NCBI GenBank assembly: GCA_017305715.1
Contig: JAFKKG010000009.1
Location: forward strand, 1 to 64,000
From: Hyphomicrobiales bacterium
Lineage (GTDB): Bacteria; Pseudomonadota; Alphaproteobacteria; Rhizobiales; Xanthobacteraceae
Length of the DNA: 64,000 bases
Direction: 5' to 3'
Below the pieces are notes generated by a model. It saw nothing but the letters and a program-made list of their open reading frames with translations, was not told where the DNA came from and ran no database searches. This document shows positions 1 through 5,869 of the stretch, piece by piece (positions within the stretch are counted from its first letter, which is position 1; every line of letters starts with the position of its first letter). The translations under genes were made by a program, and so were the position numbers.

Positions 1-54
1 GCGCGCTGCACCCGCGATCTCATGTGCGTCGTGCACAAAACAAAATGCACATGA

Positions 55-350
55 GCATACAGGGCAGCGGAGAACATCCGACATTCCCTGCGCGATGGCT
101 TTACGGCTTATGGCGAGCTCTCCCCGGAGAACGGCTCTTTTGCCTCCGTTGCGCCCTGGGAAGTCGAACGCCTCCAGGTGCATTGACGCCAGCAACGCGA
201 CGTCGGGACCACACGCTTTTGCCGTACGCTTCGGCCGCGCTCGTCAGGCGACAACCTCCACGTCCACCGCTCCCCGCCCAACGTCCGTGACGACGGCCGA
301 CGCCCTTCTGACCAGGACGGGATGGGAATCGATATGAACTGATTTGCCAT
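55..350. repeat. Probable dispersed non-coding repeat
   Basis: No reading frame here looks protein-like on either strand. The stretch running from the words acatccgacattccctgcg through gctctccccggagaac and accacacgcttttgccgt resembles, from memory, a non-coding sequence that recurs many times in Bradyrhizobium genomes. That match is recollection and was not searched. Just before it, CATGTGC (21-27) and GCACATG (48-54) form an inverted pair. The rest of 1-600 holds no gene I can support. Confidence 0.45.
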
Positions 351-513
351 TCTGGTAAACAGAAATATTTTCCATTCCGGGGCTTGACAAGATTTCTGAA
401 TAGCAGAAGGCAGTTATCCCGGCGTCGCGCTGCGGGACAGGTCGCTCTTCGAGCTCGGCGGACGAGTCGCCAAGGTTGCGCCGGGGGCGGCCATCGGTGG
501 CCGCGCGACATCG

Positions 514-529
514 TGTGACCCCCGTCACA
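514..529. promoter_or_regulatory. CRP/FNR-family palindrome upstream of the GG peptide
   Basis: TGTGA-N6-TCACA is read directly from the sequence. It is a perfect dyad matching the classical CRP consensus and is centred about 87 bases before the ATG at 609. Position and symmetry fit an activator site for the peptide gene. Which Crp/Fnr-type protein would bind is unknown. Confidence 0.5.
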
Positions 530-608
530 GCGACGCGAAGGCTGCTGCGGCATTGTCCTCCCATCGACGGCGGAATGGTCCGCCCGAGCTTAAAAGGACA
601 AGACGACC

Positions 609-767
609 ATGCAGAACGTGGAACCGAAGAACTCGGACATCGAAATGTTGACGGATGCCGAGCTTGAGGCGATCAACGGCGGCAACTGGCTTGGCGACAT
701 CGGGCGCTGGATCGTTCGCCGCTTGCAGGGCAACGGCGACCAGCGTCGCCCGACCAACCAGCCGTAA
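609..767 (+). CDS. Double-glycine leader peptide (bacteriocin/microcin-like precursor)
   Basis: This 52-residue gene is too short for routine gene callers. A purine-rich ribosome-binding site, AAAAGGAC, lies at 592-599, about 9 bases before the ATG. Residues 1-25 form a typical double-glycine leader: acidic, with Leu14, then Glu18-Leu19-x-x-Ile22-x-Gly24-Gly25. This is the pattern cleaved by the C39 peptidase domain of peptide-exporting ABC transporters. Cleavage would release a 27-residue peptide starting NWLGDIGRW, with two Trp, five Arg and two Asp (net about +3), an amphipathic first half and a polar Pro/Gln/Asn tail. It contains no Cys. A hairpin follows the stop codon. Family knowledge points to a secreted class II-type bacteriocin or signalling peptide. 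No C39 transporter or immunity gene lies within the window, so the exporter must be upstream of position 1 or elsewhere. Confidence 0.72.
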   Translation: MQNVEPKNSDIEMLTDAELEAINGGNWLGDIGRWIVRRLQGNGDQRRPTNQP

Positions 768-779
768 TATCTTCGTCCC

Positions 780-817
780 GACTGTCCCCCGCGGCGTGAG
801 CGATCGCGGGGGCAGTC
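780..817 (+). terminator. Hairpin after the GG peptide gene
   Basis: Arms 780-793 and 805-817 pair as GACTG(T)CCCCCGCG with CGCGGGGGCAGTC, with one bulged T. It begins 13 bases after the stop codon. There is no U-tract on the + strand, so it is either a weak terminator or a 3' stabilising hairpin. Confidence 0.45.
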
Positions 818-846
818 TGCGGAAAAAGACGAGACCTCCAAATTGA

Positions 847-886
847 CCGTCATTTCCCGATGCGATTGTGCATCGGGAAATGACGG
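847..886. repeat. Perfect 17-bp inverted repeat
   Basis: CCGTCATTTCCCGATGC (847-863) and its exact reverse complement (870-886) are separated by six bases. The structure sits between the GG-peptide hairpin and the autotransporter. It could be a factor-independent stop without a T-run, an mRNA stabiliser, or a protein-binding palindrome. The sequence alone does not decide. Confidence 0.55.
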
Positions 887-928
887 ATCGATGCGCCGGG
901 CCGCCCACCCGCAAAAGTTGCAGTCGGT

Positions 929-946
929 TGTGACATCGCCGTCACA
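929..946. promoter_or_regulatory. TGTGAC-N6-GTCACA palindrome upstream of autotransporter
   Basis: The half-sites TGTGAC and GTCACA are the same as those of the site at 514-529, but the spacer is two bases longer. It lies about 157 bases before the autotransporter start. The wider spacing makes classical CRP binding doubtful. A related dimeric regulator or chance remains possible. Confidence 0.3.
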
Positions 947-1094
947 CTGCAGGTAAATCGCCGTCGACCGATTGATATCCAGTTCCCAATGCTCGATGGT
1001 CGCACCGCGAATGCTGGCGTTGCATTTCGGGGGTTTTCTGTTGGGTACGGCTGCGCCACCGGCAGGCCGCTGGGCGTCTGGCTAGGAAATTTGA

Positions 1095-4000
1095 ATGCGC
1101 GCAGGATTCGTCAGGGGAGCGGACGGCGATCGGTTCGCTGAACGCACGATGCTTTTTTCTCCGCGCCGCCGCGCTACGCTGCTGGCCGGCACTGCCTTCA
1201 CCGGCGCGTTCATTGCTGCGATCGCGGGCTACCCGCAAGGCGCGCTCGCGGCCTGCCTCGGCGAGAATACCGCCAGTGTGACCTGCCAGGCCCCAGGCGA
1301 CCAAGCGACCGCCGGCACGCTCAACACGACTTTTGCCGGCACTACGGTGATTAATGTCAATCCGGGCGGTAAGATCGATACCGGCGGCGCAACCGCGTCC
1401 GTCACGGCGGCCGGCAGCCTGACCTTCAATCACAACGACACGATCTTCGGGATTACTGGCACAGGCGGTGACGGCGTCAGGCTCACCAACACCTTCGGTG
1501 CGGTCACCTATTTGGGAAATGCGGCGGTCACTGCGACGGGTGGCAGTGGGGTAGTCGCCAGTTCGGCTGGCGCGGGTAACCTGACGGTCACCAGCAACGC
1601 GACGGCGCTCAGCACCGTCGGTTCCGGCATCTTCGCGGTAAAGGGGGGAACCGGCGACATCCTGGTCAACGGCAGTGGCGCTGCGACCGGCGCGCAGAGC
1701 GGCATGAATGTCCAGCAGTTTGGCACCAGCGGCGGCATCACCATCAGCGGGAGCGGGGACGCTACCGGAACCGCCGATGTTGGAATCAATGCCAGCATCA
1801 ATGCGACGGCGAACACGTCCAACATCCTGATCGACCGATCCGGCGCCGTAACCGGCGCTAATGGCATTGTCGCGACTTCAGGGGGTAAGGGCAGTATCAC
1901 CATTACCGGCGGCAGCGTCGTCGCCAGCACCGCGGGCGTCGGCATCGCCGCATTTCAGGACAACAACGCCGCAGGCACCAACGGCTCTATTACGGTCGGC
2001 GGGTCCGGCAACATCAATGCCGTTGGCGGTATTGGTATCGACGCCGAGGTCACCGGCGCCAACAATAGCGGCAGCGTCATGGTCAACCGCACCGGCAACG
2101 TGACGGCGACCAGCGCCGGCATATTCGCGAAAACAACGGGTGGCGGCAATGTCACGGTGACCGGCGTCGGCAACGTGAGTTCGTCGGGCAACGCCGGCAT
2201 TGTGGCGTCAAGCACCGGCAACGGCAATGTCCTAGTCGCGGCCGCAGGCACTGTTTCCGGCACTGCCGGAATTAGCGCCGGGGTGGTCGGCTCCGCGACG
2301 TCGACCGTGAATGTCACAAACAACGTGACGGGCACGGCTTTCGACGGCGTCATCAACTCCACGAATCTCGGGCTTAATACCGTGAACGTCAGTGCCGGAA
2401 CGATTCAGGCGGCGCAATCGGCCATAACCGCCGCTTCGGGAACGGGCAACATCGCCGTCACGATCGGCGCCGGTGCTGTTCTGCAAGCCACCTCCGCTGC
2501 CGGTGTCTCGCTCAGCAATGGTACCGCCAATACGGTCGTCAACAATGGCGCGATTACCGGTAGCGTAGGTCTCGGCACAATCGGGGGATCCGTCGCCATC
2601 ACGAATTCTGGTAGCATCAAGGGCAACAGCGGCGTGGCCTTGGTCTTGGGCGGCGCCAACAATTCGTTCCTGATGAGTGGCGCCAGCGCTGCGCTGGTCG
2701 GCGCGGCGACGGGCAGCGGCACCGACACCTTCCGCCTCGGCGGCAGCGCGGACAACAGCTTCAACGTCAGCCAGATCGACACCGGCTGGACCCTGCTCGA
2801 CAAGACGGGCACGTCGAACTGGGCGCTGACCGGCACCAGCACCTATGCCGGCCCGGTTACCGTCAATGGCGGCATTCTCAGCGTCAACGGTGATCTAACG
2901 TCGGCATCGAGTCTGACGGTGAATGCCGGCGGCACGCTCGGCGGCACCGGCACGGTCGGCAACACCCTGATCAATGGCGGCACGCTAGCGCCGGGCAATT
3001 CGATCGGCACGCTTAACGTGACCGGTAGCCTGACGTTTACGGCAGCCTCGACCTATCTGGTGCAGATCTCGGGCGCGACATCAGACAAGACCAATGTGAC
3101 GGGCACCGCCACGCTTTCCGGCAAGGTCATGGTCGATCCCTTGACTCGCGTCGCCACCACGACGACCTACACGATTTTGACGGCCGGTACTGTCGCCGGC
3201 ACGTTCAACTCGGCGGGCTTTCTCGCCGCCAACAGCTTTGCGAGTAATGCACGGCTGAGCTACGTCGGCAAAGATGTTCTGCTGACGGTCGATCCCGGCC
3301 TGCTGTCGCCGAACCTGCCGGCCGGCGCCACGATCAACCAGAAGAACGTCGCGGCCGGTATCGACAACGCGCTCGGTGCCGGGGCCAACATGCCGGCCGG
3401 CTTCAATGCGCTGTTTGCACTTGCGGGCACTGGTCTTGCCAATGCGCTGACGCAGGTCTCGGGCGAGATCGCGACCGGATCGCAGCAGACCACGTTCGAT
3501 GCGATGAACCAGTTCATGGGCGTGATGACGGACCCGTTCATTGCCGGGCGCGGCGATCCCGTCAGCGGTGGCGGCAATCCGAATGCCTATGCGGAGGACA
3601 GCCTCGCTTATGCCGCCAGGCGCAAGCCCGCTGATGCGCTGGCCGCGATCTATACCAAGGCGCCGCCGGCGCCTCCGTTCGCGCAACGCTGGAGCGTCTG
3701 GGTGGCGGGCTATGGCGGTTCACAGCGGACCGACGGCAATATGGTCGTTGGATCGAACGATACCCGCAGCAGCATTTACGGCACGGCCGTCGGCGCCGAC
3801 TATCGCATTTCGCCGAACACGCTGGCGGGTTTTGCGCTGGCCGGTGGCGGCACCAATTTCAGCGTCAACGGGTTTGGCTCCGGCCGCTCCGACCTGTTCC
3901 AGGCCGGCGCGTTCATCCGGCACACGATCGGTCCGGCATATCTGAGCGGCGCGCTGGCCTATGGCTGGCAGGACATCACGACGGACCGCACGGTGACGGT

Positions 4001-4523
4001 GGCCGGCATCGATCGCCTGCGCGCGCAGTTCAATGCCAATGCGTGGTCGGGCCGCGTTGAAGGTGGCTATCGCTTTGTGAGCCAGGGATTTGGCTGGACG
4101 CCGTACGCCGCCGGACAGTTCACCACCTTCGAGTTGCCGGCTTATGCCGAGCAGGCGATCGTCGGCAGCAACGTGTTTGCGCTGGCTTACAATTCGAAGA
4201 GCGTGACCGACACCCGCAGCGAACTCGGGCTGCGCACCGACAGATCCTTTGCCGTGCAGAGCGGCATCTTCACGCTGCGCGGCCGCGCCGCCTGGGCGCA
4301 TGATTTCAATCCGGATCGCGCGATCGGCGCCACCTTCCAGACGCTGCCGGGCGCCTCGTTCGTCGTCAACGGCGCGGCGCGCGCCGCCGATTCCGCGTTG
4401 GTGACCGGCGCCGCCGAGATGAAATGGCTGAACGGCTGGTCGACGGCGGCAACGTTCGAAGGCGAGTTCTCCAACGTCACCCGCAGCTACGCCGGCAAGG
4501 GCGTGGTTCGCTATGCCTGGTGA
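1095..4523 (+). CDS. Autotransporter (type V secretion) with beta-helical passenger
   Basis: Protein of 1142 residues. AGGA at 1084-1087, seven bases upstream, supports this start. A second ATG at 1149 would give a shorter, conventional signal peptide (MLFSPRRR... ending ALA-A). With the first start, the n-region is extended, as in many autotransporters. Residues about 55-560 are a low-complexity, Gly/Ser/Thr/Asn/Val-rich passenger with repeated xxITIxGxG-type strands, typical of a right-handed beta-helix. About 563-680 contain autotransporter-associated strand repeats (STYAGPVTVNGG, GGTLGGTGTVG, GGTLAPGNSIGTL). About 863-1142 form the outer-membrane beta-barrel, ending in the aromatic residues YAW. 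The passenger is expected on the cell surface and may act in adhesion. No protease or lipase motif was seen. Confidence 0.9.
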   Translation: MRAGFVRGADGDRFAERTMLFSPRRRATLLAGTAFTGAFIAAIAGYPQGALAACLGENTASVTCQAPGDQATAGTLNTTFAGTTVINVNPGGKIDTGGATASVTAAGSLTFNHNDTIFGITGTGGDGVRLTNTFGAVTYLGNAAVTATGGSGVVASSAGAGNLTVTSNATALSTVGSGIFAVKGGTGDILVNGSGAATGAQSGMNVQQFGTSGGITISGSGDATGTADVGINASINATANTSNILIDRSGAVTGANGIVATSGGKGSITITGGSVVASTAGVGIAAFQDNNAAGTNGSITVGGSGNINAVGGIGIDAEVTGANNSGSVMVNRTGNVTATSAGIFAKTTGGGNVTVTGVGNVSSSGNAGIVASSTGNGNVLVAAAGTVSGTAGISAGVVGSATSTVNVTNNVTGTAFDGVINSTNLGLNTVNVSAGTIQAAQSAITAASGTGNIAVTIGAGAVLQATSAAGVSLSNGTANTVVNNGAITGSVGLGTIGGSVAITNSGSIKGNSGVALVLGGANNSFLMSGASAALVGAATGSGTDTFRLGGSADNSFNVSQIDTGWTLLDKTGTSNWALTGTSTYAGPVTVNGGILSVNGDLTSASSLTVNAGGTLGGTGTVGNTLINGGTLAPGNSIGTLNVTGSLTFTAASTYLVQISGATSDKTNVTGTATLSGKVMVDPLTRVATTTTYTILTAGTVAGTFNSAGFLAANSFASNARLSYVGKDVLLTVDPGLLSPNLPAGATINQKNVAAGIDNALGAGANMPAGFNALFALAGTGLANALTQVSGEIATGSQQTTFDAMNQFMGVMTDPFIAGRGDPVSGGGNPNAYAEDSLAYAARRKPADALAAIYTKAPPAPPFAQRWSVWVAGYGGSQRTDGNMVVGSNDTRSSIYGTAVGADYRISPNTLAGFALAGGGTNFSVNGFGSGRSDLFQAGAFIRHTIGPAYLSGALAYGWQDITTDRTVTVAGIDRLRAQFNANAWSGRVEGGYRFVSQGFGWTPYAAGQFTTFELPAYAEQAIVGSNVFALAYNSKSVTDTRSELGLRTDRSFAVQSGIFTLRGRAAWAHDFNPDRAIGATFQTLPGASFVVNGAARAADSALVTGAAEMKWLNGWSTAATFEGEFSNVTRSYAGKGVVRYAW

Positions 4524-4806: not shown

Positions 4807-5487
4807 TCAGATCATGCGAAACGCAGTTGCCTGGTTGCGGCGGCGATAGGCCATGAAGCCTACGCCAGCGAAGCCGAGGATCATCATGGCCCATGTGGAG
4901 GGTTCGGGGACGGCAGCAACGACACGGGTCATCCATGCCTGCGAGCCGGTATCCTGCCCGTTGGTGAGATCCGCGGCGAAATATGCGAGCTGCGCGTTCG
5001 CGATAAAGTCATCGGTGCTGAGGCCGCTGGTCCGGGTGACGCGGAAATCCAAGTCGCCGTAATAAGCATTACTTGAGCCGTTGCCAGCCGTGCTGTTGAT
5101 CGAGATGCCGAAGGTCCCAAAAGGAGTGGCGTCGCCGTTGCTCGTGCTGAGGCTGAACAGCCCAAAGGTGTAAGCACCACCAGAAGGTTGGAGGAACGTG
5201 GCGCTGACACCGCTCTCGGTGCCTGCCAGCGTAAAGGCGAACGGCGTGTGCGGCCCGCCGGTATTGATGAATCCGTATTGCGGCGCCGGCAGGGTGGTGT
5301 CTGTCAGGTCGACGAATACGTCGACCGTCGTGCTGTTGATTTGCGTGAGAGTTATCGTTCCAACATTGGATGGTTGGACGCCCACGCTGGTTGTGAACGT
5401 GTAGACCGGCCCTGCCAGGGCAGAGGCCGCGGAGAGGAGGAGCCCACCTGCGGCCATCGCGGCACAGTGAATAATTGATTTGAACAT
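4807..5487 (-). CDS. PEP-CTERM (PEPxxWA) sorting-domain protein
   Basis: Protein of 226 residues. The start at 5487 is preferred over an upstream in-frame codon at 5517 because AAAGGGCG lies eight bases before it. An N-terminal signal peptide ends near SAASALA-GPV. The middle is a Ser/Thr/Gly-rich beta domain without a recognised enzymatic motif. The C-terminus has the full tripartite sorting signal: VPEPSTWAMM, a hydrophobic segment, then RRR. In this family the tail is recognised by an exosortase, and the protein is linked to extracellular polysaccharide or biofilm. No exosortase is in the window. It has its own terminator and is transcribed convergently to the autotransporter. Confidence 0.85.
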   Translation of the reverse strand: MFKSIIHCAAMAAGGLLLSAASALAGPVYTFTTSVGVQPSNVGTITLTQINSTTVDVFVDLTDTTLPAPQYGFINTGGPHTPFAFTLAGTESGVSATFLQPSGGAYTFGLFSLSTSNGDATPFGTFGISINSTAGNGSSNAYYGDLDFRVTRTSGLSTDDFIANAQLAYFAADLTNGQDTGSQAWMTRVVAAVPEPSTWAMMILGFAGVGFMAYRRRNQATAFRMI

Positions 5488-5869
5488 TATGACGCCCTTT
5501 AAAAAATAACTTTCCAAGTTCTGACCGACGGCAGATTAGGAGTCAATCCGAAAATTAAATAGAGTGTTCATTTTAAATTTTTGATTTAATGAGAATCAGA
5601 GGAGATCCCTTGCAACCGTCCCCTTCGGGGCAGACCCCGACGAACAGGCCTCGCGTGCAGTTGCGACGAGATGATACCGTAAAATAGATAAAAGATGAAC
5701 AAAATTAACCACTTGACGATCAAGTTGGTCAGAAGAGCAACGAGTTGCGATATGATGCTTTCGACTCAATCCGCAATAATTATTGAGTAGGTTTGGGGCC
5801 GGGTTTCCCGTTAAGGGAACGTGGCGCTGCTTCGGCCAATTTTCGACGATTTGGGGGATATTTTTCCGC
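5488..5869. other. AT-rich divergent intergenic region
   Basis: This 382-base gap separates the PEP-CTERM gene (leftward) from glmS (rightward) and probably carries both promoters. It is clearly AT-richer than its surroundings, with segments such as 5560-5590 and 5680-5712. A TATGAT hexamer at 5751-5756 could be a -10 box, but no matching -35 stands at 17 bases. No riboswitch or small gene was recognised. Confidence 0.4.

Follow-up and report, generated by a model that had tools for sequence, protein, structure and literature searches.

A screen for double-glycine (GG) peptides in Gram-negative bacteria was reportedly made by Dirix et al. in 2004. In class II bacteriocins with a GG leader, the leader consensus and the short cationic core are like those of the peptide described here, but here no immunity partner was seen. 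According to the accessible part of the paper on the NHLP (NHLM) export system (Haft, Basu, Mitchell 2010, PMC2887384), that system comprises the same HlyD-like, C39-ABC and ABC proteins as the present one and has GG precursors encoded in the same genome, some also adjoining the exporter as they do here, while the paper also reports precursors encoded at a distance from their partner genes. The same accessible text covers the prochlorosin/N11P expansions of marine cyanobacteria, in which, as here, many GG precursors with diverse cores occur in one genome. The leader consensus of C39/PCAT substrates is L(-12)xxxE(-8)L(-7)xxI(-4)xGG, as given in the available part of PMC6363468.

The precursor gene analysed here lies in a window of 64,000 nucleotides, the whole stretch of DNA under study, which starts at the first base of contig C25; the genome measures 7.45 Mb, and the precursor stretch is single-copy in it. 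In contrast to NHLP precursors, the window precursor has no nitrile-hydratase-like leader, and the four NCBIfam families reported at E values up to 10 included neither TIGR03793 (NHLP) nor TIGR03798 (N11P), in a search whose filters drop weak matches. The window leader thus qualified as neither an NHLP nor an N11P precursor. Unlike the prochlorosin/N11P expansions, the leaders found here are short, about 17-40 residues, and not of the Nif11 type, and no LanM was noticed by eye near the exporter cluster on contig C40. Moreover, the shared CRP-type promoter and UTR hairpin are not mentioned in the accessible text of PMC2887384. The parts are of known kinds and their combination was not found in the literature searched: none of the titles and abstract openings listed, mostly with a rhizobial or alphaproteobacterial focus, described this regulon. 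The features of the locus were as follows.

514 to 529, plus strand: CRP-type activator box TGTGACCCCCGTCACA, a perfect TGTGA-N6-TCACA palindrome, also recognised by its conservation
551 to 556, plus strand: putative -10 element CATTGT, 21 nt 3' of the box
569 to 584, plus strand: 5' UTR hairpin GGCGGA-AUGG-UCCGCC, from the inverted repeat and covariation (alignment A3)
595 to 598, plus strand: Shine-Dalgarno sequence AGGA, read from the sequence, 10 nt 5' of the ATG
609 to 767, plus strand: GG-leader precursor ORF with an ATG start, 52 aa, from homologues and dN/dS
609 to 683, plus strand: leader of 25 codons, the last two Gly-Gly, with L(-12), E(-8), L(-7), I(-4) and GG as in C39 substrates
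684 to 764, plus strand: core of 27 codons, the predicted secreted peptide
780 to 817, plus strand: downstream hairpin (fold z -3.9), a probable transcript end or stabiliser

The initial annotation had proposed a short gene with a ribosome-binding site, an E-L-x-x-I-x-G-G leader and a basic core free of cysteine, all of which were found. The translation consisted of the leader MQNVEPKNSDIEMLTDAELEAINGG, which ends in ELEAINGG, followed by the core NWLGDIGRWIVRRLQGNGDQRRPTNQP; the arrangement L(-12)-x3-E(-8)-L(-7) with GG before the core was present in LTDAELEAINGG. The core has 27 residues, a charge of +3, a pI of 11.8, a mass of 3203.5 Da and no Cys, and the hydrophobic moment of its first 15 residues was equalled or exceeded in 3.4% of shuffles. 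A search of Bradyrhizobium returned full-length, unbroken homologues in four other genomes at 69-73% identity. The outcomes that would have spoken against a protein-coding gene, broken frames or no selection at the protein level, were absent: Nei-Gojobori dN/dS was 0.04-0.16 among the four homologues and 0.36-0.51 between the window and those four. More widely, precursor matches occurred in 31 of 265 same-genus genomes (E<=0.01) and in 18 of 391 genomes of a family-level sample, where five lay outside the genus, one of them strong (E 3e-16). In many distant members the leader and the C-terminal motif, GPGDLRR or GPGNLRG, were kept, while the middle varied. Alignment A1 held 10 sequences, one cut at 43 aa and three at 70 aa. 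Positions 609-767 are a real gene, an orphan whose likely exporter is on another contig, and the product, judging from its sequence, is very probably a small exported peptide.

The most informative part of the locus is the upstream palindrome, which is found again upstream of many unrelated GG peptides. It had been annotated as perfect and CRP-like, and it proved to be conserved in the four homologues. The box was found at -95/-96 from the ATG in the window and the homologues, and in near-perfect form in distant members. TGTGA-N6-TCACA occurred at two sites in the window, compared with 0.04 expected from shuffles, and the perfect palindrome at 30 places in the genome, with none for the reversed control. 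A box (N6, <=2 mismatches) was located <=260 nt upstream in 15 of 19 representatives; the four without one of their own (L023, L037, L040, L041) sit behind another GG gene, and the first gene ahead, examined for two of them, had a box at -93 and -98, respectively. Of 41 aligned upstream regions, many of them closely related, 36 had a YAY-type -10 element exactly 21 nt downstream of the box. The layout was TGTGA-N6-TCACA, a gap of 21 nt, a -10-like element and a short 5' UTR before the ATG, and the conserved box at a fixed promoter distance, in these 36 regions and at 48 sites in the window's own genome, is what a CRP-type regulon would show. A spacing of 21 nt after the box is the arrangement of class II activator promoters, and the box centre, at about -41.5 and 29 nt before the -10 hexamer, is placed as in class II CRP-dependent promoters. 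A sigma-70 scan found no promoter in the region upstream of the window gene, a result to be expected where an activator site stands in for the -35 element. The candidate regulators are 13 HTH_Crp_2 matches above the cut-off in the genome; among the five for which a helix was located, one (L212) had R-E-x-x-x-R, as in CRP.

The box with the 21-nt spacing and YAY occurred at 48 sites in the genome, while the backward control gave none. When all 48 were tested for a short GG-leader ORF (20-130 aa with a GG leader, <=130 nt downstream of the site), 17 preceded one, compared with 86 of 40,000 random window positions; the P value of 2e-33 is only indicative because the random positions were not matched for intergenic sequence. 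No GG ORF followed the other 31 sites, and many of these precede ordinary genes, so the regulator is not exclusive to GG genes. Boxes without YAY at the spacing preceded GG ORFs in 7 of 56 cases, adding five more peptides (the loci were partly chosen for GG genes), and YAY is therefore a preference and no strict rule. In all, 23 GG-leader ORFs were identified in the genome; 22 of them follow such a box and one does not, and apart from its start codon each was matched exactly to the genome DNA. Their leaders had L(-12) in 21 of 23 (I in the other two), and L(-7), V or I(-4) and GG in all 23, in searches that demanded hydrophobic residues and GG at those positions, not leucine as such. The cores varied widely and were amphipathic, Gly-rich, Pro-rich or Cys-containing; two otherwise different peptides (L195, L198) both had the core motif NPQPLPPK. 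The shared leader and promoter suggest that these ORFs may encode a coordinated set of secreted peptides.

Between the -10 element and the Shine-Dalgarno sequence, a subset of the family has a hairpin with an AUGG loop; for the window gene, neither this inverted repeat nor the 21-nt spacing was part of the initial annotation. Other members had GCGCGGA-AUGG-UCCGCGC, GAGGGG-AUGG-CCCCUC and GCGGGA-AUGG-UCUCGC. Covariation was scored in alignment A3, whose 24 rows were taken from 28 distinct 20-mers from 41 regions; 92.8% of 138 cells were paired and 28 had changed on both sides, compared with at most 62.3% and 8 in slid controls. The rows were partly chosen by loop, with L051 (3-nt loop), L095, L103 (5-nt loop) and L019 left out and L049 and L136 picked by hand, so that these counts lean towards the hairpin. 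Three of five measures were reached in 0 of 500 shuffles, while pairs changed on both sides (92/500) and further pair types (135/500) were unexceptional. The window UTR alone (563-608) was not unusually stable (z -0.8). A stem of >=5 pairs around AUGG was found in 5 of the 23 ORFs of the genome, the window gene included and one with a UGG loop, which makes the element a subset feature. Among the three Rfam matches listed up to E 5 for window positions 1-1200, none reached the gathering score. An upstream start codon in the loop was rejected, as the distance from loop end to ATG ranges from 24 to 32 nt in the rows with a correctly placed hairpin and the frame is not kept. A DNA operator was disfavoured relative to an RNA hairpin, since the stem letters change in pairs, some to G-U, while the loop is constant. 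Two tandem hairpins were seen by eye and fold in the 5' UTR before a GG peptide at L012, L013, L025, L036 and L039.

The box combined with GGRATGG occurred three times in the window's genome, each time ahead of a GG ORF. In seven genomes it occurred at 34 places, and 19 of the 30 tested precede GG ORFs, with one site counted twice among the 19. Its mean number per genome was 2.46 in exporter-positive genomes (n=70) versus 0.96 in the others (n=195). Genus-wide the pattern is loose: 174 of 265 genomes match, and among the matches listed, with genomes mixed, 3 of the first 30 loci lay ahead of a GG ORF.

Downstream of the gene, the hairpin that had been annotated was found as a strong fold at 780-817 (z -3.9; MFE -32 kcal/mol for 776-826), and a CCCCCGCG...CGCGGGGG stem was also seen by eye 3' of the four homologous genes. 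It is not a canonical intrinsic terminator, since no T-run follows it and a terminator scan found nothing. Farther along, an inverted repeat with 17-bp arms and a 6-nt loop, single-copy in the genome, occupies 847-886 (z -8.2 for 842-890), and a second CRP-like site with wider spacing, TGTGA-N8-TCACA at 929-946, lies ahead of a long repeat-rich ORF (1095-4523) that is autotransporter-like by eye. An ORF on the minus strand at 4807-5517 has a PEP-CTERM-like tail, again by eye.

The likely exporter of the window precursor, as far as sequence can tell, is an NHLP-type C39-peptidase ABC system on contig C40 of the same genome. The initial annotation had suggested looking for a transporter upstream of position 1; the contig ends there, and nothing points to an exporter on that side. 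Its three proteins all scored above the NHLP/NHLM cut-offs: 1) an HlyD-like protein of 422 aa (TIGR03794, 292.6 bits, cut-off 156.2), 2) a C39-ABC protein of 717 aa (TIGR03796, 1060.4 bits, cut-off 853.3) and 3) an ABC protein of 968 aa (TIGR03797, 860.9 bits, cut-off 709.4). The cluster carries a Peptidase_C39 domain (E 1.9e-36), so the genome has the C39-peptidase exporter expected alongside a GG-leader peptide, and a 54-aa GG precursor adjoins it. The neighbours of the peptide gene look metabolic by eye in the four closest homologues, and in several other relatives precursors flank an HlyD, C39-ABC, ABC cluster. A C39 domain (E<=1e-30) was present in 27 of 31 precursor-matching genomes versus 43 of 234 others (Fisher 4e-14, ignoring kinship), or in 26 of 29 versus 44 of 236 when G219 and G064, whose matches are not leaders, were left out. 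The precursor-matching genomes without an exporter at this threshold were G094, G111, G176 and G219, the last being one of the two non-leader matches. No TGTGA-N6-TCACA-type box was found <=300 nt from the HlyD gene of the exporter operon.

Several other observations were made around exporters. In L042, L043, L044, L045 and L046, pairs of like GG precursors flank the exporter on either side and point outward in opposite directions, which resembles an inverted duplication around it. A protein with cyclic-nucleotide-binding and patatin domains is encoded near the C40 exporter (L062:6886-8703). At another place in the genome (L192, C29:72500-72700), divergent HlyD-like and ABC-like genes, identified by eye, have box-plus-spacing sites both ways.

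The reading that we favour, with a probability of roughly 0.65, is that the genome encodes a dispersed regulon of GG peptides that would be exported in trans by a single exporter. A CRP-family activator would bind TGTGA-N6-TCACA and, from the spacing, probably drive a short transcript from a promoter of the class II type. The hairpin in the 5' UTR probably influences initiation or the stability of the mRNA, and the 52-aa precursor would be translated from this short mRNA. The leader, the exporter and their co-occurrence suggest that the C39 domain of the C40 exporter cuts after Gly25 and that a basic peptide of 27 residues is secreted. As to its use, a membrane-active role in competition between bacteria leads the candidates, if tentatively and short of an even chance; signalling is a more doubtful use, and some other purpose is unlikely. 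Any bacteriocin or signalling function of the window peptide is putative.

It is conceivable, if somewhat improbable, that the product is a secreted signal or developmental peptide, an idea also put forward for the Nostoc PCAT HetC. In other systems signals make use of GG leaders and C39 exporters, according to the available parts of PMC6363468 and PMC10986499, and both the common CRP-type control and the failure to see an immunity gene would suit such a role. However, no receptor or sensor kinase was linked to the peptides, and about two dozen different cores would be a large number for a single signalling circuit.

An orthodox class II bacteriocin, in which a secreted cationic amphipathic helix kills relatives while a dedicated immunity protein protects the producer, appears unlikely. 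The core is indeed basic and amphipathic, and there was a weak likeness to class II leaders in Pfam and NCBIfam, but every class II match fell below its cut-off (PF10439 14.3 of 27.1 bits, lactococcin G-beta 16.2 of 29.4, ComC 12.4 of 20.4). Membership of that family was rejected on the PF10439 score, which is below the gathering cut-off, as was a XyeA triceptide (TIGR04495, 15.4 bits, cut-off 33). Between 767 and the ORF at 1095 gene prediction yielded no gene-like ORF, and inspection by eye revealed no immunity gene next to the four homologues, which, as far as these regions go, speaks against this reading. PADLOC returned 0 families. The only conserved unknown beside the exporter was a 149-aa protein (L062:16080-16529) with no Pfam or NCBIfam match above cut-off. 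ORFs similar to it adjoin the exporter in L038, L042 and L044, and it is a candidate accessory or immunity protein.

We consider it quite unlikely that the box marks nothing more than a global CRP regulon, that it precedes GG genes by coincidence and that these genes form no functional group. The 31 sites ahead of other things and the exporter operon that has no box would fit this explanation, but GG ORFs followed 17 of 48 sites versus 0.2% of random positions, the spacing and UTR layout are common to unrelated GG families, and box-plus-GGRATGG preceded GG ORFs in 3 of 3 cases in the window's genome. Finally, a chance ORF without a product, for which the single copy at a contig edge and the 234 of 265 same-genus genomes without a match (E<=0.01) might be cited, is practically refuted by dN/dS, the length, frame, leader, core and promoter having been kept in four other genomes under purifying selection.

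Similarity searches have difficulty with GG peptides, which are short and diverse, and consequently the substrates of C39 exporters often stay unidentified. The dispersed regulon favoured here offers another route: the promoter signature provides a list of candidate substrates, with GG-leader ORFs behind 17 of the 48 sites in one genome, and a large set of micro-genes becomes testable together. We give even odds to the broader proposition that exporter-bearing Bradyrhizobium have about two dozen scattered, mostly unrelated GG peptides united by a promoter grammar, a subset of which has an undescribed AUGG-loop RNA element that would set when or how the peptides are made, and that a promoter search finds peptides that a protein search misses. 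If true, this would mean that in a Gram-negative soil bacterium secreted peptides encoded at dispersed loci can be run as one programme under CRP-like control.
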